Positions 25,261-43,983 of a stretch of 64,000 nt of DNA are shown piece after piece (position 1 is the stretch's first letter; the number at the start of each line of letters is the position of its first letter). The translations under genes were made by a program, and so were the position numbers. Origin of the DNA: a virus; the IMG/VR virus record IMGVR_UViG_3300034117_000713, positions 62,001-126,000 of that record. One strand, given 5' to 3'. The notes beneath the pieces were generated by a model. That model had not been told where the DNA came from. It was given only the letters and a program-made list of their open reading frames with translations, and did not search any database.

Positions 25261-26280
25261 ATGGCAACGTTAGCAGAAATTAGAGCAAAACTTCAAGCAT
25301 CATCTCAACAAAACACTGGTGGCTCATCCGGTGGAGACAACGCAATTTACCCCCATTGGAACATCGCAGAAGGACAAACCGCAACGGTTCGTTTCTTGCC
25401 TGACGCTGATCCAAACAACACCTTCTTCTGGATCGAACGTGCAATGATCAAATTGCCTTTCGCCGGTGTCAAAGGTGAAGCAAATTCCAAGCCCGTGACT
25501 GTGCAAGTTCCTTGTATGGAAATGTGGGGCGAGACATGTCCAATTCTTACTGAGGTTCGCCCTTGGTTTAAAGACAAGTCTTTGGAAGACATGGGTCGTA
25601 AGTACTGGAAAAAGAAGTCATACCTGTTCCAAGGTTATGTAGTAGATAGCCAGTACAAAGAAGATGGCAAAACTCCTGAAAATCCAATTCGTCGATTCAT
25701 TATCGGCAGTCAAATCTTTAACATTATCAAGGCAGCTTTGCTAGATCCTGATATGGAAGAATTGCCAACTGACACACTTCGCGGTGTGGACTTCCGCATT
25801 GTTAAAACTAGCAAGGGCGGATATGCAGACTACTCTACATCACAATGGGCTCGTCGTGAACGTGCTCTAGGTGATGCTGAACAGGCAGCTTTGACACAAT
25901 ACGGTGCGTTTGACTTAAAGTCATTCTTGCCTAAAAAGCCCGGCGATGTTGAACTCAAAGTCATGAAAGAAATGTTTGAAGCGTCAGTAGACGGTGAAGC
26001 ATTTGACATGGAACGTTGGGGTCAATACTTCAAGCCAGCAGGTTATGGTGGTCGTGACAACGCCTCGGGTACAGCATCTGCTGCCCCAGCTGCTCGTCCA
26101 GCACCGGCGGCTCCAATGGCTGCTACTCCGGTAGCAGAAGCGGCACCGTGGGAAGAAGAAGTTCAAGTAGCTGAAAAGTCATTCACTCCTGCACCGACTG
26201 CACCAGCAGGTGGAAGCGAAGCAAGTTCACGAGCTCAAGATATCTTAGCTAAGATTAAAGCACGTAACGCAACCGCTTAA
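25261..26280 (+). CDS. 32: Single-stranded DNA-binding protein gp32, 339 aa
   Basis: Coats ssDNA in replication and recombination. LAEIRAKLQ N-terminus (cooperativity), central OB/zinc region with C-M-E-M-W-G-E-T-C-P-I and HW-type His upstream, KDKSLEDMGRKYWKKKSYLFQGYVV core, and an Ala/Pro-rich acidic C-terminus (~260-320) that in T4 recruits UvsY and gp59. AAGGAA site. First gene of the recombination operon, followed by uvsX. Confidence 0.95.
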   Translation: MATLAEIRAKLQASSQQNTGGSSGGDNAIYPHWNIAEGQTATVRFLPDADPNNTFFWIERAMIKLPFAGVKGEANSKPVTVQVPCMEMWGETCPILTEVRPWFKDKSLEDMGRKYWKKKSYLFQGYVVDSQYKEDGKTPENPIRRFIIGSQIFNIIKAALLDPDMEELPTDTLRGVDFRIVKTSKGGYADYSTSQWARRERALGDAEQAALTQYGAFDLKSFLPKKPGDVELKVMKEMFEASVDGEAFDMERWGQYFKPAGYGGRDNASGTASAAPAARPAPAAPMAATPVAEAAPWEEEVQVAEKSFTPAPTAPAGGSEASSRAQDILAKIKARNATA

Positions 26281-26294
26281 TTTAGGAGATCATA

Positions 26295-27353
26295 ATGGCA
26301 AAATCATTTGATATTTCTAAGTTTCGCAAGTCCATCACTAAGTCTATTGAAGGCTTAGGTATTGGCTTCAACGATCCTACTGACTGGATTTCAACTGGCA
26401 ACTTTGCTCTTAACTACTTGATCTCGGGGGACTTTAATAAAGGGGTCCCCCTTGGTAAAGTTACTGTTTTCGCAGGCGAAAGCGGTGCAGGTAAGAGTTA
26501 TATTTGTTCAGGCAACATTATTAAACATGCACAAGAGCAAGACATGTATGTTATCCTAGTTGATAGCGAAAATGCACTTGACGAAGCATGGCTACACGCA
26601 CTTGGTGTTGATACTTCAGAGAAAAAACTTCTAAAACTTAACATGGCTATGATTGACGACGTGGCAAAAACCATTAGTGAATTCATGAAAGAATATAAAA
26701 CAATGCCGTTGGAAGAACGTCCAAAAATTTTGTTTGTAATTGATTCTTTAGGCATGTTGTTGACTCCTACTGACGTAAATCAGTTTGAAGCAGGCGAAAT
26801 GAAAGGTGACATGGGCCGTAAACCCAAAGCACTTACATCTCTTGTTCGTAATTGTGTCAACATGTTTGGTAGCTATAACGTTGGGTTAGTTTGTACTAAC
26901 CACACCTATGCTAGCCAGGATATGTTTGACCCTGATGACAAGATCAGTGGAGGCCAAGGCTTCATTTATGCTAGCTCTATTGTAGTTGCTATGCGTAAAT
27001 TGAAATTGAAAACAGACGCAGATGGTAATAAGACTACAACAGTTAACGGTATCCGTTCTGCTTGTAAGATTATGAAAACTCGTTATGCAAAACCATTTGA
27101 GTCAGTACAAGTTGAGATCCCGTATGCAACAGGTATGGCACCGACGTCCGGATTAGTGGACTTATTTGAAGCTAAAAACGTTTTGACAAAGAGCGGAAAT
27201 AAGCTACAATATATAAGTAAAGAAACTGGCGAAGTTCATTCTTTTTTCCGAAAAGGTTGGACTGAAGACAAGTTAAAAATTATTATGGATGAATGGGACG
27301 AAGCTGCAATGGATATTGCGGCAGTAGTTGCTGAAGATACTGAGGAAGCATAA
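26295..27353 (+). CDS. uvsX: UvsX recombinase (RecA-like), 352 aa
   Basis: Strand-exchange ATPase. Walker A G61-E-S-G-A-G-K-S, Walker B ILFVIDSLG and the GLVCTNHTYAS motif fit UvsX; length is close to T4 UvsX (391 aa). TAGGAG ribosome site. Lies directly after gp32 and upstream of uvsY and uvsW, the T4 recombination set. Confidence 0.97.
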   Translation: MAKSFDISKFRKSITKSIEGLGIGFNDPTDWISTGNFALNYLISGDFNKGVPLGKVTVFAGESGAGKSYICSGNIIKHAQEQDMYVILVDSENALDEAWLHALGVDTSEKKLLKLNMAMIDDVAKTISEFMKEYKTMPLEERPKILFVIDSLGMLLTPTDVNQFEAGEMKGDMGRKPKALTSLVRNCVNMFGSYNVGLVCTNHTYASQDMFDPDDKISGGQGFIYASSIVVAMRKLKLKTDADGNKTTTVNGIRSACKIMKTRYAKPFESVQVEIPYATGMAPTSGLVDLFEAKNVLTKSGNKLQYISKETGEVHSFFRKGWTEDKLKIIMDEWDEAAMDIAAVVAEDTEEA

Positions 27354-27601
27354 TGGAAGAAGCATTGATTATGGAGGTATGGGATACCTTCCGAGAATAT
27401 ATCCCAGACAAAAACAAAGAATTGGCTGCTCATCAGTACGTTGATTTCTTGTTAGGCAAGGATGTCGAAATTGCCGCACTTGAAGCTCTTATGGGATATG
27501 ATCCTCATCTAGACATTGCTGTTAAGGCAGTGGTTGATGAAGAAAAAGAATTCGAAGACGAAGAAGACGACGGTTATTCCGAAGAAGACGAGGACTATTA
27601 A
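27353..27601 (+). CDS. Small acidic protein between uvsX and uvsY, 82 aa
   Basis: Start overlaps the uvsX stop (TAATG) and its own stop overlaps uvsY the same way, so it is translationally locked into the recombination operon. The last ~25 residues are almost all Glu/Asp (EEKEFEDEEDDGYSEEDEDY), a DNA-mimic-like or protein-docking tail. Function unknown; a regulator or partner of UvsX/UvsY is plausible from position. Confidence 0.85.
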   Translation: MEEALIMEVWDTFREYIPDKNKELAAHQYVDFLLGKDVEIAALEALMGYDPHLDIAVKAVVDEEKEFEDEEDDGYSEEDEDY

Positions 27602-28056
27602 TGAACTGGTACAGCAAAGTTAGCAATGATATTGCTCACTTACCAGGCTGTATCGATCATTACTATTCCGAATTAGAACAGGCAAGGGGCGAGGTTAAAG
27701 TCTATGGCAACATAGAAAAAACTTCTGCCGCCTTACCAGGAATTGTAGCACATCGATTTAATCAACTTCAAGAAATTGAAGGTATCCTCGAATACCTGAA
27801 CATTGAACTTCGCAGAATCAGATCAAAGACCTTTAAAAAATATTTAGAAAACTATGCTAGGGCTCTTAGTTCTAGAGATGTTGAAAAATATGTCGACGGC
27901 GAAGCAGACGTAGTTGATATGGAAAAGATCATTAATGAGTTTGCACTCTTGCGTAATCAATGGTTGGGTATTATCAAGGGATTAGACATAAAACAGTGGC
28001 AAGTTAGTAACATCATTAAACTCCGTACCGCCGGTATGGAAGACGTGTCAATATAA
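27601..28056 (+). CDS. uvsY: UvsY-like recombination mediator, 151 aa
   Basis: UvsY loads UvsX on gp32-coated DNA. This small helical protein has the UvsY layout: helical N-terminus, Lys/Arg-rich middle and a C-terminal NQWLGIIKGLDIKQWQVSNIIKLR segment corresponding to the T4 YWGILLDFCSGALDAIKSRGF region. Length matches T4 UvsY (137 aa). Position between uvsX and uvsW supports the call. Confidence 0.82.
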   Translation: MNWYSKVSNDIAHLPGCIDHYYSELEQARGEVKVYGNIEKTSAALPGIVAHRFNQLQEIEGILEYLNIELRRIRSKTFKKYLENYARALSSRDVEKYVDGEADVVDMEKIINEFALLRNQWLGIIKGLDIKQWQVSNIIKLRTAGMEDVSI

Positions 28057-28057
28057 A

Positions 28058-29260
28058 ATGAAACTCTACATTGAAGATCTCATCTGTAGGCTCGGTAACA
28101 CCGGAAGCTATCTATTTTCTAATCCAATCTCTTTATGGGCAATGGATGAAAAAGTAGTACACAGCCTTGCGGCCAATCCATCAGCTGGCCGAGGCTTCAC
28201 AGAGAAGCAACGATCACTGGTTTTACGTCTTTGTAAAAAATACCAAGGCCAGCTTACCGCTGACCTCGGCACCGCAGTTACCGTGGCCCTTGATGCTCCT
28301 GAGTTTAAATTTAATTTAATAGAACCTGCACTTCAAGAAAAGTCCATTAAAATAGAAGGGAAGGAAATTTTGATAAAATTTCCATTTTCTGAGGAAATTG
28401 TTGAAAAAATTAGAAAATTCAAATCAGAAGTAAAAGTTAAAACTGTGGAGTGGAACGGTGACTCTAAGGCATGGAAGTTTGCCTTAGAAGAAAATAATGT
28501 ACTATGGATCACTCAACATATCCTAAATGATAGTTTTATAGTGGATCCTGAATTTCTTGAATTTTCTGGTCAAATTTCCGAAATTCTTGAAAATATGGAA
28601 AACTATGTACCCACAGTGGCTTACGAAAATAACCAGTACTTGTTCAAGAATGTATATCGAACAGTACCTCAACCTGAATCTAATGATCTAATTGAGACTC
28701 TGTTACTGGCCAAGCACTACGGCATTAGTACATGGGACGAAACTGTTGAAAATCTGATAAAAAATGCAAATTTTTCACCAGTTCTGACATCGTTTTTAGA
28801 AGAATCGATATCGAATAAGCCAGAATTTGACGTCAATGAAAATAGTATTGATCAGTTTACTGAGCTGTTCAAGCATAATGTTCCCGCATTGATCATCATT
28901 CCCGGCTACGGCGAATTCTTCACTTTAAAAACATGGACTACCTGGTTAAAATCTCAAGGATTTAAAGAAAAAGACATTAGTGTATTGTTTAGACTAGACA
29001 GTGACACCGGTGGCATGTTTAACGAACTAGTAAAACAGAACAACTTAAACAACCCTATTAACGATAACACTAAAATTGTATTTGTCAGCCAAAAGATTCC
29101 TAAACCATTGATTAAAAGTGGCATAGAATTTAAACTAATTGTAAATCTAGGAAGTCTGTCCGGAGTTCACTATAGTGTTTCTACATACTTGGATGGTAGG
29201 GCAGACGTAATTAGATATACAGATAAAACTAAATCAGGATACCAGTTTGGCCTATTGTAA
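28058..29260 (+). CDS. HARP-like protein upstream of uvsW, 400 aa, no Walker motifs
   Basis: Residues ~85-150 (F-x-F-N-L-I, KFPFSEEIVEKIRKFKSEVKVKTVEWNGDSKAWKFAL) resemble the HARP domain of SMARCAL1-type annealing helicases, where a basic helix is followed by (W/Y)-x-x-x-x-K-x-W-x-F. The C-terminal ~170 residues read like an eroded helicase lobe (IIIPGYG, KIVFVSQ) but no GKT or DExx is present. The gene overlaps the UvsW helicase by 14 nt. I infer a DNA-junction-binding partner of UvsW; homology is suggestive only. Confidence 0.85.
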   Translation: MKLYIEDLICRLGNTGSYLFSNPISLWAMDEKVVHSLAANPSAGRGFTEKQRSLVLRLCKKYQGQLTADLGTAVTVALDAPEFKFNLIEPALQEKSIKIEGKEILIKFPFSEEIVEKIRKFKSEVKVKTVEWNGDSKAWKFALEENNVLWITQHILNDSFIVDPEFLEFSGQISEILENMENYVPTVAYENNQYLFKNVYRTVPQPESNDLIETLLLAKHYGISTWDETVENLIKNANFSPVLTSFLEESISNKPEFDVNENSIDQFTELFKHNVPALIIIPGYGEFFTLKTWTTWLKSQGFKEKDISVLFRLDSDTGGMFNELVKQNNLNNPINDNTKIVFVSQKIPKPLIKSGIEFKLIVNLGSLSGVHYSVSTYLDGRADVIRYTDKTKSGYQFGLL

Positions 29261-30704
29261 AATTATAATCAAGGATGAAGTCAATGTAAAAATTGAAAAC
29301 TTAGACCTTGACACAAGAAAAAAACTGGTTACAAAATTCAAATATTTTGATCAAAAAGCTCGCTACTTGCCTGCTTATAAATTAGGTCGTTGGGACGGTT
29401 GCACTAGCTTCTTTGGACTTGGTGGCACTACCTATATGAGTATGTTACCTGATGTTATTGAGGAATTAGTACATCAGGGTTACGATCCTGTACTAGAAGA
29501 TCATCGTGTTCCTATGGCCTTGAGCTTTGACCTAGTTGCTGAAGATTTTTGGGGTGACCAAACATGGCCTGAAGGTCATCGGTTTGCCGGATCAAAGATT
29601 AGACTGCGTGATGATCAAGTTGAAGTTGTTAACAAGTTTCTAGAAAATCCTCAGTGCATTCAAGAAATTGCCACGGGCTTTGGTAAGACAATTACCACAG
29701 CCACGTTGGCAAAAATCTGTGAAAAATATGGTCGAACTGTGACCATTGTTCCTAACAAAAGTCTAGTTGAACAAACTGAAGAAGACTTCATTAACTGCGG
29801 ATTAGACGTCGGAGTGTACTACGGAGATAGAAAAAATCTTGATAAGACACATACTATCTGTACTTGGCAAAGTTTGAATATTCTTGACAAGAGATCTAAA
29901 AATACCACCGACGAAGAGTTATTAACACTGGCAGAATTACTTGAAGGTGTTCAAACAGTAATGGTTGATGAGGTGCATATGGCCAAGGCAGAAGTGTTGA
30001 AGAAACTGTTAACCAACAATCTTGCCAATGCACCCATTCGTTGGGGACTAACCGGAACTGTGCCTAAAGAAGATATAGATTTTCAAAATATTAAATGTGC
30101 ATTAGGCGAAGTAGTACACACAGTTAAGGCACATACTCTGCAAGAGGCAGGAGTACTAAGCACCTGCCATGTAAATGTTATCCAAACTGCTGAGTGGAAA
30201 GAATTTGGCAGTTATCCTGAAGAACTAAAGTATCTAGTGACCGATGAAGATCGAGTTGCATGGATTAGTAAACTGGTTGCAGGAATTGCAGAAAGTGGAA
30301 ATACGTTAGTACTGGTTGACAGGATTGAAACAGGACGTATAATAGTAGACAACATCCCAGATAGTGTCTTTATCTCGGGAGAAGTAAAAACTAAAGACCG
30401 GAAGACTGAGTATGACGAAGTTAGAACTGCTGATAAAAAGATTATTGTGGCGACTTATGGTGTGGCCGCTGTGGGTCTTAATATCCCCCGTATTTTTAAT
30501 TTGGTTATGGTTGAGTCCGGAAAGAGCTTTACAAGGGTTATACAAAGCATTGGGCGAGGCATTAGAAAAGCAGACGACAAAGACTTTGTACAAATCTGGG
30601 ATATTACAGCGTCGACGAAGTATGCGAAGAGACACCTTACTGAACGAAAGAAGTTCTACAAAGACGCCAAGTATCCGTTCACAATTGAAAAGGTAAAATA
30701 TTAA
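29247..30704 (+). CDS. uvsW: UvsW helicase, 485 aa (TTG start)
   Basis: SF2 helicase that regresses forks and unwinds recombination intermediates. N-terminal domain ends KLGRWDG as in T4 UvsW; motif I ATGFGKT, motif II VDEVHMA (DEVH), motif III LTGT, motif V TYGVAAVGLNIP, motif VI QSIGRGIRK. No ATG is available early enough; TTG 29247 gives MAYCKIIIKDEVNVKIE, matching the T4 N-terminus, with CAGGAT upstream. Overlaps the HARP-like gene and is coupled to the next gene. Confidence 0.94.
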   Translation: MAYCKIIIKDEVNVKIENLDLDTRKKLVTKFKYFDQKARYLPAYKLGRWDGCTSFFGLGGTTYMSMLPDVIEELVHQGYDPVLEDHRVPMALSFDLVAEDFWGDQTWPEGHRFAGSKIRLRDDQVEVVNKFLENPQCIQEIATGFGKTITTATLAKICEKYGRTVTIVPNKSLVEQTEEDFINCGLDVGVYYGDRKNLDKTHTICTWQSLNILDKRSKNTTDEELLTLAELLEGVQTVMVDEVHMAKAEVLKKLLTNNLANAPIRWGLTGTVPKEDIDFQNIKCALGEVVHTVKAHTLQEAGVLSTCHVNVIQTAEWKEFGSYPEELKYLVTDEDRVAWISKLVAGIAESGNTLVLVDRIETGRIIVDNIPDSVFISGEVKTKDRKTEYDEVRTADKKIIVATYGVAAVGLNIPRIFNLVMVESGKSFTRVIQSIGRGIRKADDKDFVQIWDITASTKYAKRHLTERKKFYKDAKYPFTIEKVKY

Positions 30705-31207
30705 TGCAAATTCTCACACTTGATAATAAGATTTATCATCTAAACGACCTACCAGATGAGGTTGATGAAGATCTCAGATTCAGTGTTATGGACAATAGCG
30801 ATCCACAAAATCCTGACTATTTTTATATTCCTCTAATATTCTTAGAGTCGTTCACTGCACCTGCTGCGGTACTTAAAGTCGGGCCATATACTGTAAACAT
30901 GCCATTAGATTGGTGTACTATTGTAGGAGACCCAGAGGGTCCCGATATGGAAATTATACCTCTGACTAGTTTGAATGATCGCGGCTTTAGAACATTTATT
31001 TTTAATCCATTGAGCTCATTTAGACCCGAGTTTTACGATATTGATATTGTTGATGTGTATCAAGATGTTCGTTGGTATTTTCCTAAAATGAAGCCAGGAC
31101 AACTGTTATGTACTCCGTTAAACAACGATCCTAAACCTCCGTGTGCATACTTTGTTAAAGAAGTCAGTCGTCAAAGTGAACTAGTAGATTACTCAAGGTG
31201 CTGGTAA
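30704..31207 (+). CDS. Hypothetical protein after uvsW, 167 aa
   Basis: Start overlaps the uvsW stop (TAATG). Globular, rich in Pro, Asp and aromatic residues, with strings VGPYTVNMPLDWCTIVGDPEG and FNPLSSFRPEFYDI; no catalytic motif recognised. Its conserved location in the replication operon suggests a transcription or replication accessory; not assigned. Confidence 0.85.
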   Translation: MQILTLDNKIYHLNDLPDEVDEDLRFSVMDNSDPQNPDYFYIPLIFLESFTAPAAVLKVGPYTVNMPLDWCTIVGDPEGPDMEIIPLTSLNDRGFRTFIFNPLSSFRPEFYDIDIVDVYQDVRWYFPKMKPGQLLCTPLNNDPKPPCAYFVKEVSRQSELVDYSRCW

Positions 31208-31208
31208 T

Positions 31209-31367
31209 ATGCCGTATACTGAACCGCAAATATTTGAAACATTGAATAGACTAATTAGAATCTATTCAGAGAGTTATCCGAATGATCGAGAAGGATTAGA
31301 ACGATTTTCTCGCTGGGCACATTCACAATATGGATATACGTATGGGCAGTCTGACTCCGAACGTTAA
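31209..31367 (+). CDS. Small protein, 52 aa
   Basis: ATG directly after the upstream stop (GGTAATATG) opens a frame MPYTEPQIFETLNRLIRIYSE ending TYGQSDSER, amphipathic and helical. Its 3' end overlaps the start of the next gene by 38 nt. No match recognised; support is the dense operon packing and the natural protein-like composition. Confidence 0.6.
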   Translation: MPYTEPQIFETLNRLIRIYSESYPNDREGLERFSRWAHSQYGYTYGQSDSER

Positions 31368-31629
31368 GCTAATTTACGAACGAGTAGGCGGCACTGTATA
31401 TGCCCGCGAACAAGGTAGCACTGAAAGGACCGTTGTGGGATACGACTATCATAGGGATCCGTTAGATCACAGAAATTATATGAGTACGCCTAGCGAATCT
31501 CAGTTATGGCATGATATTAGACAAGCAGCCTTGGACAATAAAGAATTGGAAAACGCCTTAGAACGTGTTAAAATATTGTACTATCTAAGCAAAGACAAAG
31601 AATATAAAGTTCCTCATCATCCGGTATAA
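31330..31629 (+). CDS. Conserved small protein, 99 aa
   Basis: Two candidate starts, ATG 31330 and ATG 31342 (MGSLTPNVKLIYERV); the second gives the cleaner N-terminus. Contains a YERVGGTVYAREQG strand pair and a long helix (ESQLWHDIRQAALDNKELENALERVKILYYLS). Function unknown; resembles short accessory proteins in environmental T4-like replication operons. Confidence 0.82.
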   Translation: MDIRMGSLTPNVKLIYERVGGTVYAREQGSTERTVVGYDYHRDPLDHRNYMSTPSESQLWHDIRQAALDNKELENALERVKILYYLSKDKEYKVPHHPV

Positions 31630-31631
31630 AC

Positions 31632-32093
31632 ATGGCAGCAAAACTAGACATTGGCAGAGAATTAACAGCGGTAAATCGTAGAGACCACGATTTTTATAAG
31701 AACTTAACTGACGAAGAGAAGAAAGTTTTTAGTCCGTATATTTTAATGAGATATGTAAGCAATCCTCAAGTTGATCCCGAAACATATCAGTTCATTCTCG
31801 AACGAGTTAATGATCTTGTCAATATCAATCACTGGACTTTAAGTAAAGGTCATAAGCAACTTCTTTGGCAATTATTTGCCAGTTGCGGAGTTGGTGTGCC
31901 TGTCAAATACACATACCTGAAGTCAGGTGCCAAAGGCAAAGCAAACAAGATTGAGAAGCTTCTTGAAGAATTATATCCTGCAATGAAGTTAAGTGATATC
32001 AAAGTGTTAGCATCATTGATGGACGATAAAGACAAACAAGAATTGTTTGATAAAATGGGATTTGATAAGAAACAACGGAAAGAATACGAGTAA
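31632..32093 (+). CDS. 62: Clamp-loader small subunit gp62-like, 153 aa
   Basis: Layout follows gp62 of environmental T4-like phages: FYKNLTDEEKKVFSPYILMRYVSN (the F-x-P-F/Y-x-x-x-R-x-x-S motif), a middle N-D-L-V-N helix and a Lys-rich stretch, then a C-terminal LSDIKVLASLMDDKDKQELF helix like the SxEKAxEALxLLSxEDL region. gp62 helps gp44 load the sliding clamp gp45; neither partner gene is in the window. Call is by pattern, not certain. Confidence 0.72.
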   Translation: MAAKLDIGRELTAVNRRDHDFYKNLTDEEKKVFSPYILMRYVSNPQVDPETYQFILERVNDLVNINHWTLSKGHKQLLWQLFASCGVGVPVKYTYLKSGAKGKANKIEKLLEELYPAMKLSDIKVLASLMDDKDKQELFDKMGFDKKQRKEYE

Positions 32094-32785
32094 TGGAGTT
32101 AGTTGACCAACCTTTTACATGTGTGCATTGTAACAAGAGTTTTATGCAAGAGAAAACTCTTGTTGCTCATATGTGTGAACGAAAAAGGCGAGTGCTACAA
32201 AAGGATGAAAAAAGAGTCCAGATGGGATTCTTTGCCTACAACAGATTTTATCAACTTACTCAGGCTGCAAAAAAACAAAAACCCTATAGTGACTTTTGTA
32301 AGAGTGCATACTATAATGCCTTTGTAAAATTTGGTAGCTTTATTAACAATGTAAATCCTTTGTATCCAGAACGATTTATCGACTACGTAGTTAAGAGCGG
32401 AATTAAATTAGATCATTGGTGTAGAGATGATCTGTATGACAAATATCTAAGTGAGCTGATCAAAATAGAGCCTGTAGAAAGTGCTATTGAAAGAAGCTTG
32501 CAATATATGATGGAATGGGGCGAAGAACAAAATGCAAATTTTGCACATTACTTCAAATACGTAAATGTAAATCGTGCAGTACATCATATTAGAGATGGAA
32601 AAGTCAGTCCCTGGTTAGTTCTAAATTCTGGGAGCGGAGTTGAACTAATGAGAATGTTTAATGACGAGCAATTGGATATGATTAATCAAACATTAGATTT
32701 ATCTTTTTGGTCAAAGAAATTTAGAGACTGCCCGGCGGATGTGGCGTTTGTAAAAGAAATTTGTAGGGAGACTGGAATTGCCTGA
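32093..32785 (+). CDS. C2H2 zinc-finger protein, possible gp59-like helicase loader, 230 aa
   Basis: The N-terminus carries a classical finger F-T-C9-V-H-C12...H25-M-C27/H-type, followed by a basic patch (KRRVLQKDEKR). The all-helical remainder (YNAFVKFGSFINNV, VNRAVHHIRDGKVSPWLVLNS) loosely parallels T4 gp59, which loads helicase gp41, and the neighbours are replication proteins. The finger would be an added DNA-binding element. Starts on the stop of the gp62-like gene (TAATG). Finger is seen; the gp59 role is inference. Confidence 0.88.
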   Translation: MELVDQPFTCVHCNKSFMQEKTLVAHMCERKRRVLQKDEKRVQMGFFAYNRFYQLTQAAKKQKPYSDFCKSAYYNAFVKFGSFINNVNPLYPERFIDYVVKSGIKLDHWCRDDLYDKYLSELIKIEPVESAIERSLQYMMEWGEEQNANFAHYFKYVNVNRAVHHIRDGKVSPWLVLNSGSGVELMRMFNDEQLDMINQTLDLSFWSKKFRDCPADVAFVKEICRETGIA

Positions 32786-33356
32786 TATTGATATAGATTT
32801 CTTAAATCGTTCAAATGTGTTGGATATAATTCAGCATGTGCCTGCTTGTCTTGAAGACGGAAAGAAACATAACACAGGTGCGTATTGTCATGCAATTCCT
32901 GTTAACTCATTAACCGGCAATGCCAATATCAATTATAAAGAAGCAGAATCTCGAGGCTACTTTAAAATTGATTTTTTAAATGTTAGTGCATATGAAGGTG
33001 TCCGTAATGAAGAACATCTTAAAGAATTATTAGCAGCTGAGCCGCTTTGGGACTTATTAGAAGATCCGGCGGTATGTGACCAGCTGTTTCATATCAATGG
33101 GTATCATCAATTGATTGCAAAATTAAAGCCTAAGAGCATTGAAGAATTATCCATGTTCCTTGCACTTCTCCGCCCGGGTAAAAAACATCTCATCCCAGTA
33201 TGCGAGAAAGAAGGTTTCCAAGGTATCCAACAGGAGATATGGACTAAAACGGATGATGCTTATTTCTTTAAGAAGGCTCATGCTGTTGCTTATGCTCACG
33301 TTATTGTTGTTCAACTTAACTTGATTTGCGAACGGGTTAGCTACCCTTTTTCTTAA
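32778..33356 (+). CDS. Miniature C-family (DnaE-like) DNA polymerase relic, 192 aa
   Basis: The best start is TTG 32778, overlapping the zinc-finger gene by 8 nt, which puts P-D3-I-D5-I-D7-F at the N-terminus. This is the palm motif of bacterial PolIII alpha. Three further DnaE motifs follow in the right order: GYFKID65FLNV (third catalytic Asp), LALLRPGK (128-135) and FKKAHAVAYAHV (164-175). Full DnaE is ~1100 aa; PHP, most of the fingers and the clamp-binding and OB regions are absent. Whether it polymerises, binds DNA/dNTP, or regulates replication is unknown. Motif order is seen; function is open. Confidence 0.86.
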   Translation: MPDIDIDFLNRSNVLDIIQHVPACLEDGKKHNTGAYCHAIPVNSLTGNANINYKEAESRGYFKIDFLNVSAYEGVRNEEHLKELLAAEPLWDLLEDPAVCDQLFHINGYHQLIAKLKPKSIEELSMFLALLRPGKKHLIPVCEKEGFQGIQQEIWTKTDDAYFFKKAHAVAYAHVIVVQLNLICERVSYPFS

Positions 33357-33720
33357 CACTTCTAACCAGTTGAATGCTCTTGCGTTTGACACGCTTTTCA
33401 GCAATCTCACCTAGATTAACAATTGGCCCAAAAATAATTTCAACATCTTTGCTGTTGAATGTTTTTATAAAAGGCCTGAAAGCCACCATTTCTTGTTTTA
33501 GAAAAATGTTGATAGGGATTTTCCTATTACTTTCCCACCACCAAACTTCTCCCATTTCTAAGAACAAGTGTTTATGTTCTTCGTTGCGTATATCAGCATA
33601 GTTGTATATGCTAGTAACGTTATCATCGTGATTTACAATGATACCTATATACTCATTATCTGAGGTTTTGATGCAGGTTATGAATGGAAACTTTTGTTGA
33701 AACTCGTCCTTGTTGGTCAT
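33337..33720 (-). CDS. Conserved hypothetical protein of T4-like environmental phages, 127 aa
   Basis: Start at ATG 33720 (MTNKDEFQQKFPFITCIK); upstream ATG 33750 is in frame but lies across the divergent late promoter. The sequence GEVWWWESNRKIPINIFL and FNSKDVEIIFGPI is familiar from T4-like cyanophage proteins of unknown role. Ends in a basic tail. Overlaps the mini-DnaE 3' end by 20 nt on the opposite strand. Confidence 0.85.
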   Translation of the reverse strand: MTNKDEFQQKFPFITCIKTSDNEYIGIIVNHDDNVTSIYNYADIRNEEHKHLFLEMGEVWWWESNRKIPINIFLKQEMVAFRPFIKTFNSKDVEIIFGPIVNLGEIAEKRVKRKSIQLVRSVKKKGS

Positions 33721-33723
33721 TAA

Positions 33724-33729
33724 TAAATA
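33724..33729 (+). promoter_or_regulatory. Late promoter box TAAATA, leaderless spacing
   Basis: TTAATAAATATATG: 5 nt from box to ATG 33735. A second, out-of-frame ATG overlaps at 33731. Confidence 0.6.
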
Positions 33730-33734
33730 TATGT

Positions 33735-34853
33735 ATGCAGAAATTACCAATCTATTTATACTCCAATTTGTTCAGTGTACAATTAGATCTGGACGACGAT
33801 ATAACAAGGACACATGAAACTATGTACCAACGAGAGTTAAAATTACAAAGAGGACTTAAAAACAAGGTACAGCTACAGTTTAAAAACTCTGATCAAAAAT
33901 TAGTTAGAATTTTAGCTGCATCTAGTACTGTTGGGGCTGCAACATCTGCTTCTAATTTACTCACAGTAGCCGATGCTACCAATGTCCAAGTAGGTATGCT
34001 AGTGAACAGTGATAGTGTAACTAACGGCACTTATATTTCTGCAATTAATTCAAATACCCTAACACTTGATAACTTAGATCCACAATACGATGCTGATCTA
34101 GGACAATTCCTATCACCCATTACTGAAACTATAACATCGGGCACCGCGGTTACTTTCAATCATAATTTTGTATTTTCTATGTTTGATGCAGAACAAAATA
34201 GAATGGTTGTGCAGAAAACACTTGAAGTTATTGACAACGGTGTTACTACTGCAACTCGCGGACTAGCGGTATTATCGTTGACTGAAAACGACACTCGAGA
34301 ACTACATAACGGTTACTATAATTTTTCAGTTACATTGACTGACAATGATGGTTCATCTATCCCTGCATATTCAAACACATATTATAATATTGCCGGAGTT
34401 GCAAGATTAACTAGCGAACTTGTACCAGTATTGAAAGACAGTTTAGAAACTGCTGCCTTTAAATATTTTGCAAATAGGGACGTCGAACCTAATAGATATG
34501 AATTCTATTCTGGAAACTTACGTGCAAATCCTGAAATGAGTCAGGCCACTACAATCGCTATGTATTTTACCAATTACACTGGCACCGTAGATGTGCAAGC
34601 AACCTTGGACAATGCACCTTCTAACTTTGCTAATTATGCAACATTAGAAACTAAAACCTATACAAATTTTACCGGTGTAGATTATGCAAATGCAGTAGGC
34701 ATTTGGAGTGATGTTAGAGTAAAATGGTATCCTGATAATTCAAATTTACCAAATCTGTTAAACTTCTACAGTCCTGAAATGCCAGGCAATCCTACTCCTG
34801 GTTCGGCTTATTATCCAAACGGAAAAATTGACAAAGTACTTGTAAGAAGCTAA
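33735..34853 (+). CDS. Virion structural protein, 372 aa
   Basis: Start at ATG 33735; the frame extends upstream into the minus-strand gene but without signal. Begins MQKLPIYLYSNLFSVQLDLDDD and contains ELKLQRGLKNKVQLQFKNSDQK, strings typical of a conserved structural protein of environmental T4-like phages. Beta-rich, Thr/Asn-rich, without a membrane segment. Late promoter agrees with a virion role. It splits the replication genes in two. Confidence 0.82.
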   Translation: MQKLPIYLYSNLFSVQLDLDDDITRTHETMYQRELKLQRGLKNKVQLQFKNSDQKLVRILAASSTVGAATSASNLLTVADATNVQVGMLVNSDSVTNGTYISAINSNTLTLDNLDPQYDADLGQFLSPITETITSGTAVTFNHNFVFSMFDAEQNRMVVQKTLEVIDNGVTTATRGLAVLSLTENDTRELHNGYYNFSVTLTDNDGSSIPAYSNTYYNIAGVARLTSELVPVLKDSLETAAFKYFANRDVEPNRYEFYSGNLRANPEMSQATTIAMYFTNYTGTVDVQATLDNAPSNFANYATLETKTYTNFTGVDYANAVGIWSDVRVKWYPDNSNLPNLLNFYSPEMPGNPTPGSAYYPNGKIDKVLVRS

Positions 34854-34862
34854 ACTGTATGT

Positions 34863-35864
34863 ATGAATCTCATACAGGCTTCCGTACAAACTTTTCTGCC
34901 TCCTAAAAGGAAGACAACTCCTAGTGGCTGGATAGGTTTCAACGCAGTCTGTTGCCATCACAATGGAGATCATCAAGACACAAGAAAACGTGGTGGTGTG
35001 CTGTTCAGTAACGATGGATTCCAATATCATTGTTTCAACTGCGGATTCAAAGCAGGCTGGACACCCGGAAGGTTATTAAGCAAGAATACTAAAAATTTGT
35101 TTAACTGGATGGGAATGCCTAGTGAGGAAATTAATAAACTAAACCTCGAGGCGTTACGTAGTAAAGAAGATCAACCGGTAGCTGCTCCTACTATTAATTT
35201 TCATCAAGAGCCCAGACCTCTCCCGGAAGACTGTAAGTCAATATTAGAATGGTTAATGGCTGAGCCAAACGATGAAGTATTAGCAGTGGTTGATTACCTT
35301 GCTGGTAGAAGCATGGATTTAGAATGGTACAACTGGATGTGGAGTCCGGAGAACGGATATCGTGATCGAGTTATTATTCCCTTCTATCAGGACGGTGTGG
35401 TAGTGGGGTTTACTGGGCGGAAAATAAAACCCGGTAAACCCAAATACCTTACAGACAGTCAAAGTGGCTATGTGTTCAACATCGATCGGCAGACCGAAGA
35501 TAGAGAATATGTAATTGTAGTTGAAGGGCAATTTGATGCGATAGCTGTTGACGGTGTAGCAATTATGACTAACGAACCAAATGCTACGCAAATTGCTAGA
35601 ATTAATAAGTTAGGTAAGCGAGTTATCGCGGTGCCTGATCGAGACAAGCCTGGAGCAAAATTAATACAAGCCGCATTAGAAAATAGCTGGACAGTGAGTA
35701 TGCCAGAGTGGCAAGACAGCGTCAAAGACTGTGCCGATGCTGTGCATAGATATGGTAGATTGTATACCCTGTTCACAATTCTACAGTACGTAGAAGCAAA
35801 TGAGATAAAAATACAATTACTAAAGAAAAAACTAGAGAACCTGCATGACGATGAACAAACCTAA
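34863..35864 (+). CDS. 61: DNA primase gp61-like, 333 aa
   Basis: Makes RNA primers for lagging-strand synthesis. Zinc-binding domain: C30-C31-H32-H33 and Y-H-C57-F-N-C60-G; TOPRIM core: VVEGQFDAIAV (~220-230) and VPDRDKPG (~256-263). Length equals T4 gp61 (342 aa). Its 3' end overlaps the helicase gene by 20 nt, matching their partnership in the primosome. Confidence 0.94.
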   Translation: MNLIQASVQTFLPPKRKTTPSGWIGFNAVCCHHNGDHQDTRKRGGVLFSNDGFQYHCFNCGFKAGWTPGRLLSKNTKNLFNWMGMPSEEINKLNLEALRSKEDQPVAAPTINFHQEPRPLPEDCKSILEWLMAEPNDEVLAVVDYLAGRSMDLEWYNWMWSPENGYRDRVIIPFYQDGVVVGFTGRKIKPGKPKYLTDSQSGYVFNIDRQTEDREYVIVVEGQFDAIAVDGVAIMTNEPNATQIARINKLGKRVIAVPDRDKPGAKLIQAALENSWTVSMPEWQDSVKDCADAVHRYGRLYTLFTILQYVEANEIKIQLLKKKLENLHDDEQT

Positions 35865-37293
35865 TTATAACGCAGAAATGCAAAAACTGTATCTGGAGAT
35901 GTTTCTTTCAGATGCTGAAACTTTTATCCGCTGTCAGAATATCTTTGATGCTGAAAATTTTGACAAACGATATCAGGATTCTGCGGCGTTTGTTACCAAG
36001 TATGTAGACGACTACAAAGTCATGCCTGAGGTTAGTATTGTTAATGCTAGCTGTAGCACAGACTTTCAGGCTATTACATTACCTAAAGAAAACTATGACT
36101 GGTTGATGAATGAATTTGAAACATTTAGTCGACATAAAGGGCTAGAGCGGGCAATTCTTAAATCAGCCGACTTGTTGGAAAAGGGCGAGTACACTCCGGT
36201 CGAAAAGCTGATCAAAGACGCTATCCAGATCAGTTTGAACAAAGACATGGGCACTGACTACTGGTTTGATCCAAGAGCCCGCTTGTTATTGTTGAAGGAC
36301 AATAATGGACAGATCAGCACTGGTTATCCAAGTATTGATCGCAAGCTGTACGGCGGTTTCAAGCGTGGTGAATTGAACATTTTCTGTGCTGGCTCTGGTG
36401 GCGGTAAGAGTTTATTCCTTGCCAACTTAGGTGTAAACTTTTCGCTCGCCGGGTTGAACGTGATCTATTTTACCTTTGAATTGAGTGAAGGTTTAGTGGG
36501 TATGCGTGTGGACAGTATGCTAACTGGTATTGCTTCCAAAGACATCTTTAAGAACTTAGATGACGTTGAAATGAAGGTTAAACTCACTGGTCGCCGTGCT
36601 GGCGGAATGCAGATAAAATACATGCCTTCCGGCAAAAACTGTAACGATTTAAGGTCATATTTAAAAGAATATCAGGTCAAAACAGGCAAAAAACCTGACA
36701 TTATTTTAGTGGACTACTTGGACCTTATGATGCCACTAAGTGTTAAAGTTAGCCCAAGTGACTTGTTTGTTAAAGACAAATACGTATCAGAAGAGCTTCG
36801 TAACTTTGCAATGGAAACTCAGTGTGTAGTAGTAACTGCCGCACAGTTGAACCGCAGTGCTGTTGAAGAAATCGAATTTGATCACAGTCACATCTCAGGT
36901 GGTTTAAGTAAGATTCAAACAGCAGATAACGTTATTGGTATCTTTACCAGTAGGGCTATGCGTGAACGTGGACGTTATCAAATTCAATTTATGAAGACAC
37001 GTAGTTCGAGCGGAGTAGGGCAAAAGGTTGACTTAGAATTTGACATCGATAGTCTTAGAATTAAGGACTTAGGTGAAGAAGAAGAGGGCAGTTTTAGCCA
37101 ACAACGTAGTGCAGCAAGCAATGCATTAATTGACGGATTAAAGAAAACCAGTGTAGTTACAGCAACTAACGTTGATCCGGAAACTGGTGAAATCGATCCT
37201 ACTAGAGGCAGCTCGTTGCCTAAGGCCAAAGTCTCACCGCAACAAAGAAGTGTTAGAGATATCCTGAGTAGTTTTAGTCCGGAAAAGGATTAA
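35845..37293 (+). CDS. 41: Replicative helicase gp41 (DnaB family), 482 aa
   Basis: Hexameric 5'-3' helicase. Walker A GSGGGKSL (~183-190), Walker B IILVDYLDLM, and the DnaB-type ITAAQLNRS and KTRSSSGVG motifs. T4 gp41 is 475 aa. ATG 35845 or 35851. The stop overlaps the convergent YqgE gene stop through a shared TTAA. Confidence 0.95.
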   Translation: MTMNKPNYNAEMQKLYLEMFLSDAETFIRCQNIFDAENFDKRYQDSAAFVTKYVDDYKVMPEVSIVNASCSTDFQAITLPKENYDWLMNEFETFSRHKGLERAILKSADLLEKGEYTPVEKLIKDAIQISLNKDMGTDYWFDPRARLLLLKDNNGQISTGYPSIDRKLYGGFKRGELNIFCAGSGGGKSLFLANLGVNFSLAGLNVIYFTFELSEGLVGMRVDSMLTGIASKDIFKNLDDVEMKVKLTGRRAGGMQIKYMPSGKNCNDLRSYLKEYQVKTGKKPDIILVDYLDLMMPLSVKVSPSDLFVKDKYVSEELRNFAMETQCVVVTAAQLNRSAVEEIEFDHSHISGGLSKIQTADNVIGIFTSRAMRERGRYQIQFMKTRSSSGVGQKVDLEFDIDSLRIKDLGEEEEGSFSQQRSAASNALIDGLKKTSVVTATNVDPETGEIDPTRGSSLPKAKVSPQQRSVRDILSSFSPEKD

Positions 37294-37850
37294 AGCCAAT
37301 TGGAGATTTTGTTTTGTGCAACTAGTTCTATACTGCGATTCCATTGACCGTCATCGACTAGATTGAAAATTGACTCAATGGTTGCCGGGGCATCGAGCCA
37401 TCTATTTTGTGGTTTCCACGGAGGATCTCCCCTAAATTCTCCGTCTAATTGATTAGGTGCCCAACCACAGCTACCTATACATGTTCTATAAAGTCCCGGG
37501 CCTTCGTCTTTACTAATTGCAGCAAGTATGGCCATTTCGTTAGTGATTCCAATATCTGGCGTAATTTTTATAGTATTAGAACTTTGCCAATCTAGAGTAT
37601 GAATAATAAACACTCTGTGCGTATCGACTGGTCCTCCAACAAATACTTTATCTCGTTTTTTTGAATCAATCCCTACTGCCTGCATAATTGTACCCAGGGT
37701 TAAATTTGCGGCAGGTTTGTTAACCATTAAACCCCAAGACCCGCTAGGACTGTGTTTTGCAACTAATATAACTCCCTTGGTAAAATAGGGATCCTCGCTT
37801 CTAGGCTGCGATACTATAATACTTCCGGTTAAACTTTTTATTTCACTCAT
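37290..37850 (-). CDS. YqgE/AlgH-family (DUF179) protein, 186 aa
   Basis: Family features are plain: SIIVSQPRSEDPYFTKGVILVAKHSPSG (opening strand and helix), GLMVNKP, VFVGGPVD and the CGWAPNQLDGEF motif. YqgE is a widespread bacterial protein of unclear biochemical role, so a phage copy is notable. It has a late promoter with exact leaderless spacing and is convergent with gp41. Probable acquisition from a bacterial host. Confidence 0.92.
   Translation of the reverse strand: MSEIKSLTGSIIVSQPRSEDPYFTKGVILVAKHSPSGSWGLMVNKPAANLTLGTIMQAVGIDSKKRDKVFVGGPVDTHRVFIIHTLDWQSSNTIKITPDIGITNEMAILAAISKDEGPGLYRTCIGSCGWAPNQLDGEFRGDPPWKPQNRWLDAPATIESIFNLVDDGQWNRSIELVAQNKISNWL

Positions 37851-38596: not shown

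Positions 38597-43983
<5,387 letters not shown>

Follow-up and report, generated by a model that had tools for sequence, protein, structure and literature searches.

The C-terminal half of a split, minimal DNA polymerase III alpha in the replication operon of an uncultured phage

The open reading frame at 32778–33356 of the window (the whole stretch of 64,000 nucleotides that was analyzed) encodes another member of the split minimal DNA polymerase III alpha that was described from sequence in 2021 (PMC7824862). In that description, Iyer et al. reported that group 2.2 jumbo phages have a family-B DNA polymerase (PolB) together with a phage-specific minimal Pol III alpha that is split over distant genes, one of the split proteins being NTP-binding and the other Mg- and template-binding, and they suggested that an enzyme is reconstituted from the two (PMC7824862). 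The window protein represents the same C-terminal subunit, and its relatives show the same division between NTP-binding and Mg-binding proteins from distant genes, with PolB for company. It differs from the group 2.2 cases in that its phage is uncultured and fragmentary, and its own N-terminal half is not on the contig. We infer, with a probability of roughly two in three, that the two halves associate and rebuild one catalytic C-family active site, the role of which would be limited, auxiliary synthesis beside PolB. Beyond the 2021 description, which arrived at the same interpretation independently, the present analysis adds the exact break point, co-occurrence statistics and the invariance of catalytic residues in both halves, as well as the loss of the thumb, R390, and R709/R710, and a fold prediction of each half.

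Gene, family assignment, and predicted fold

The half-gene and the element preceding it are as follows.

32765–32770, plus strand: AGGGAG, a probable ribosome-binding site 7 nt upstream of the TTG of the polymerase half-gene
32778–33356, plus strand: C-terminal subunit of the split minimal DNA polymerase III alpha (PHROG 11778), beginning at the catalytic DxD strand

The encoded protein (C-half) has 192 residues. Its TTG start is supported by the upstream AGGGAG and by the fact that many relatives have ATG at the same codon. The protein matches PHROG 11778, annotated as “DNA polymerase,” with E = 1.2e-61, and its match to the large DnaE-type family PHROG 405 is weaker. A profile of the C-half family scored 14.4 bits against Escherichia coli DnaE, compared with a maximum of 2.8 bits in 1000 shuffles, none of which (0/1000) reached the real score. 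When used in hmmsearch, this profile matched four colinear segments of Pol III alpha in the PDB. The profile was needed for this, since phmmer with the single window sequence gave no PDB matches. Alignment with hhalign against the single E. coli DnaE sequence was weak for the C-half (probability 40%) and better for the N-terminal half described later (85%).

The structures of both halves were predicted with AlphaFold2, that of the C-half from an alignment without isolate-phage sequences, and compared with the PDB using Foldseek. The C-half model (pLDDT 88.8) gave a first ten matches that were all Pol III alpha and an eleventh that was a DNA polymerase, the remainder being noise; the best match had E = 1.2e-3, probability 1.00, and a TM-score of approximately 0.42. 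For the N-half (pLDDT 90.6), the first 16 matches were DNA polymerases; wherever a family was named, it was Pol III alpha or PolC, and the best E was 0.026. Modest E-values and TM-scores near 0.4 are as expected for half-domains. A C-family identity with preserved active-site residues, as proposed in a sequence-only reading of the same DNA, is thus supported by sequence, profile, and predicted fold, and the fold, which would have refuted that reading had it been unrelated to the C-family palm, gave credible matches only to chains of the DNA polymerase III alpha type.

Active-site residues and missing parts

Alignment to DnaE places the following motifs in the half-gene, all on the plus strand.

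32781–32801, plus strand: PDIDIDF, with D3, D5, and D7 equivalent to E. coli D401, D403, and D405 (alignment; invariant in 61 sequences)
32868–32879, plus strand: HNTG, residues 31–34, equivalent to the DnaE “AGKHAGG” region after the deleted thumb (alignment; H31 and G34 invariant)
32958–32978, plus strand: YFKIDFL, with K63 equivalent to E. coli K553 and D65 to E. coli D555 (alignment and conservation)
33171–33182, plus strand: RPGK in the fingers region; R132, P133, and K135 invariant (alignment, conservation, and PF17657)
33267–33293, plus strand: FKKAHAVAY, with H168 equivalent to E. coli H760 (alignment and conservation)

D401, D403, and D555 are the ligands of the catalytic magnesium ions and show absolute conservation throughout the C-family, and D405 is conserved in DnaE groups (PMC3919608). 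All three magnesium-binding aspartates are present in the window protein, as D3, D5, and D65. The earlier observation that four motifs occur in DnaE order holds in the alignment, in the profile, and in the colinear PDB segments, and the mapping of aspartates that it proposed as a check can now be made precise, the third aspartate of PDIDIDF being the D405 equivalent. In the fingers region, R132 aligns with E. coli R639, and PF17657 matches 52 of 61 C-half members at E up to 0.1.

Relatives of the C-half were found by tblastn in 90 phage records, and viral contigs contain at least 502 further candidate stretches that code for such relatives. D3, D5, D7, K63, and D65 are invariant across 61 diverse C-halves and are kept in all 133 full-length C-half loci, and the catalytic residues stay invariant down to approximately 45% identity. 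Of 136 loci, 131 contain the motif string that includes the catalytic residues; of the five that do not, three are truncated at the end of their contig and two (L165 and L232) lack only a lysine near H168. This pattern bears on the idea that the gene is a decaying, functionless remnant of a full-length dnaE, for which the small size of the protein relative to DnaE could speak. We regard that idea as having a negligible chance of being right, given some 500 candidate places in viral contigs with the same boundaries in those that were read, invariant catalytic residues, and a conserved place in the operon.

Bacterial Pol III alpha (DnaE, C-family; PDB 2hnh, 2hpi, 4iqj, and 5lew) and the phage proteins share the palm motifs, the three catalytic aspartates plus D405, K553, and the RPG and F-K-H elements in order, as well as the predicted fold of both halves. 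They differ in that DnaE is a single chain of 1160 residues, whereas the phage version would consist of approximately 360 residues in two chains, lacking PHP, thumb, the R709/R710 segment, (HhH)2, and the beta-binding, OB, and tau regions. The window protein starts at DnaE position ~399, two residues before D401, and since GRGS precedes D401 in DnaE, the GS nucleotide-binding motif of the palm (G363–S364) is absent from this chain. A short linker stands in place of the thumb (~420 to ~505), there is a deletion of the segment LRRAMGKKK with R709/R710, and little of the chain follows the H760 equivalent. As judged by alignment and length, the full fingers are absent, with a small proximal element remaining. 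PHP and all the C-terminal parts of DnaE, including (HhH)2, beta-binding, OB, and tau, are absent as well. The missing bulk of Pol III alpha, put at about 80% in the earlier reading, includes, in addition to the PHP, thumb, C-terminal, and clamp-binding regions, the first half of the palm, which is a separate protein in the relatives.

It has also been considered that the protein is a repurposed, non-catalytic scaffold or a decoy imitating a portion of the host's Pol III alpha, binding or disrupting the host replisome or holding the phage primase or helicase. Most DNA-contacting parts of Pol III alpha are indeed missing, and no activity of these proteins is reported in the literature searched, where we found no functional study or biochemistry of the split enzyme (others may exist). 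We give this explanation little credence in view of the complete lack of variation at catalytic positions in both halves: the D401/D403/D555/K553 equivalents are present in 133/133 full-length loci, and GRGS is present in 38/38 N-halves. In addition, the regions through which Pol III alpha binds its host partners (PHP, beta-binding, OB, and tau) are exactly those that are absent.

The separately encoded N-terminal half

The missing half of the palm is found elsewhere in related genomes. PF07733 gave one over-threshold match in each of the four complete relatives (4/4), far from the C-half, and the proteins concerned, each of approximately 170 residues, are Phosso gp138, 121Q gp56 (the C-half of 121Q being gp16), Atu_ph07 gp316, and Paride gp87. 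This partner family is PHROG 11127. The C-terminal sequence of these proteins reads “...GVGRGSSVASY..LIGVHK..S..Y.LD..EFLK,” followed by a stop, and in viral contigs the termini of all 80 related loci fall at “...EFLK” or no more than approximately seven residues away. Thus, the N-half stops at E. coli position ~392–394 and the C-half starts at 399, which defines the break point. GRGS is present in 38/38 N-halves, with G148 and S149 invariant. The position of E. coli R390 is occupied by Glu in the N-half. R390 and R709/R710 are residues that we take to contact the dNTP in Pol III structures, and with the former replaced by Glu and the segment carrying the latter deleted, nucleotide binding must differ from that in Pol III alpha.

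The two halves occur together. Using a profile, the N-half was found in all eight isolate phages with the C-half that were tested (8/8; the hosts are Sinorhizobium, Pseudomonas, Agrobacterium, Escherichia, Vibrio, Salicola, Klebsiella, and Xanthomonas, i.e., eight genera), with distances between the two genes ranging from approximately 15 kb in XacN1 to approximately 224 kb in Phosso. Among the 15 contigs that carry either half and are 200 kb or longer, 13 have both. The exceptions are G004, which lacks the N-half, and G024, which lacks the C-half, both of which may be incomplete contigs. In the closest large relative (G001, 221 kb), the C-half of which is 72% identical to that of the window, both halves and PolB are present. 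No natural fusion of the N- and C-halves was seen among 118 C-half ORFs or 80 N-half ORFs. In three of the four complete relatives, the N-half gene lies three or four genes before a gp44-like clamp-loader gene; in Phosso, an AAA-ATPase gene lies eight genes beyond it.

Pfam and profile searches of the 151-kb source contig, which is a fragment, gave no N-half, so the partner of this particular phage is not seen. Metagenome 3300034082 contains one contig with an N-half and another with a C-half identical to that of the window. The former was considered as the source of the window phage's N-half, and it did not stand out by tetranucleotide composition, where it ranked 38 of 138.

These data also address the suggestion that the 192-residue protein is a minimal polymerase by itself. 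The C-half is predicted to fold confidently on its own, and neither the fragmentary source contig nor G004 shows an N-half. Nevertheless, with its start at the DxD strand, the chain is missing the GRGS half of the palm, which is cut at the complementary point and encoded separately in 8/8 isolates and 13/15 large contigs, so we do not consider the window protein to be a stand-alone mini-polymerase and judge activity without the N-half to be very improbable.

Parts of this system have been noted before. CBB_328 of Pectobacterium phage CBB (PMC5259590) and gp316 of Atu_ph07 (PMC6102473) were described as truncated Pol III alpha. The latter is the N-terminal half of the split enzyme, and an annotated CBB match indicates that the former is as well. 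Atu_ph07, which was named as a group 2.2 phage (PMC7824862), carries both halves. The C-terminal halves are annotated as hypothetical proteins in many records, and the present assignment corrects these labels. Among viral models, the best structural match was to compact single-chain phage C-family polymerases (e.g., PHROG 11165; BFVD A0A8S5RVH1, 791 residues), which are likewise shorter than bacterial DnaE but consist of one longer chain, with both palm halves apparently in one family profile. Separately, 35 of 38 N-halves matched PHROG 13169 (463 positions, a phage “DNA polymerase”), in which the GRGS region lies near the C-terminal end, a layout that hints at a possible split of C-family polymerases in further phages as well.

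Gene neighborhood and proposed function

The half-gene lies in the following surroundings.

25261–37293, plus strand: replication/recombination operon comprising SSB, UvsX-like, UvsY-like, a 400-aa gene, UvsW-like helicase, unassigned genes, zinc-finger gene, polymerase half-gene, structural-like gene, primase, and DnaB-like helicase
32093–32785, plus strand: C2H2 zinc-finger gene, PHROG 11058, 230 aa, with an 8-nt overlap with the polymerase half-gene
33337–33750, minus strand: convergent conserved gene, PHROG 11637, tail to tail with the polymerase half-gene, with a 20-nt overlap

The sequence-only reading had placed the gene in a phage replisome operon, after a zinc-finger gene with an 8-nt overlap, and both points agree with this map. 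The order of the operon is broadly the same in Phosso, Paride, Atu_ph07, and 121Q, and in these four relatives a PHROG 11058 zinc-finger gene either immediately precedes the C-half gene or is found one to three genes before it. The zinc-finger protein was considered as the missing half of the palm and rejected: its C-terminus contains “NSGSG” in the window, but the relatives have TVGDQ, AVGQD, LASSS, or LAPKK at that place, so this is not a GRGS motif. In those isolates for which the region was read out, a reverse-strand gene of a size similar to that of the PHROG 11637 gene is found at or adjoining the corresponding position, and the constancy of its place suggests a functional link to the polymerase half-gene.

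The carriers of the C-half are Rak2/121Q-type coliphages, relatives from Klebsiella, Erwinia, Salmonella, and Serratia, PA5oct-type Pseudomonas phages, Atu_ph07, Phosso, SCTP-2, and XacN1. The term T4-like, used in the earlier reading, is correct in a broad sense, the carriers being jumbo phages of the Rak2/121Q, PA5oct, Atu_ph07, and SCTP-2 kind. A family-B DNA polymerase was found in G001 and in all eight isolates tested; none was found on the 151-kb source fragment. A role of the split Pol III alpha as the main phage replicase was rejected, the relatives having PolB and no PolA. In Paride (OR805295.1, 88.9–92.7 kb) and KP13-7 (OP617745.1, 351–354.7 kb), the PolB matches are divided among separate frames, a pattern consistent with the intein-split PolB that has been reported in the related phage MIJ3 (PMC6892783).

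In the proposed mechanism, the C-half would supply the metal-binding carboxylates (the D401/D403/D555 equivalents), K553, and the small proximal fingers element, and the nucleotide-binding half of the palm, with GRGS, would come from the separately encoded N-half of approximately 170 residues. Association of the chains would take place across the palm, such that GS from the N-half and D/D/K/D from the C-half form one two-metal active site. Since there is no thumb or clamp-binding part, a distributive enzyme with a limited task is to be expected, most likely carrying out short synthesis such as extension of primers or recombination intermediates or gap filling, beside the family-B replicase. 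Our best guess is a step in recombination-dependent replication, in which the enzyme would extend or fill at D-loops, primers, or gaps next to PolB. This guess is based on the location of the C-half in an SSB–UvsX–UvsY–UvsW–primase–helicase cluster and of the N-half near a clamp loader in most genomes read out. The full version of this proposal, i.e., an active heterodimeric C-family polymerase of approximately 360 residues, without thumb or dNTP-holding arginines, that performs a specialized step in recombination-dependent replication beside PolB, is tentative, and we would put the odds somewhat against it.

An alternative, which we consider unlikely, is that the halves form a C-family-derived nucleotidyltransferase that is not template-directed and adds one or a few nucleotides to primers or DNA ends, or that they act as a nuclease or in end processing. 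The metal-binding, GS, and K553 equivalents are invariant while the thumb, R390, and R709/R710 are gone, and the same genomes have a full PolB; there is also a precedent in another nucleotidyltransferase family, that of prokaryotic PolX enzymes reported to lack polymerase activity (PMC9226535). This alternative gains if the dNTP contacts of R390 and R709/R710 are not replaced. On the other hand, the RPxK and FKKxH elements of the fingers are retained with little or no variation, although a simple end-transferase has no obvious need of them, and the operon context is one of replication and recombination.

Should the auxiliary-polymerase reading be true, the heterodimer of approximately 360 residues would define the minimal part of the bacterial replicase fold that still functions. 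If the halves are active together, they would reveal how small a portion of the bacterial replicase suffices for nucleotidyl transfer, and for what reason a phage that encodes PolB retains a second polymerase core unrelated to it. Both the break point and the partner gene are now defined precisely enough for a direct test in a cultured phage such as 121Q.

Some other reading frames in the window deserve mention. The 400-aa ORF between the UvsY-like and UvsW-like genes (28058–29260, plus strand) has no significant Pfam or PHROG match; its place is taken by a DnaQ-like exonuclease gene in 121Q and by an uncharacterized 500-aa gene in Phosso. Adjoining the DnaB-like helicase gene, a minus-strand ORF (37290–37850) encodes a bacterial-type, AlgH-like DUF179 protein (PF02622, E = 2.8e-31). 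The 1621-aa protein encoded at 39115–43980 on the minus strand has collagen triple-helix repeats and a C-terminal Peptidase_S74 (endosialidase chaperone) domain and is probably a tail fiber; several proline-rich ORFs opposite this gene look like artifacts of the repeats.
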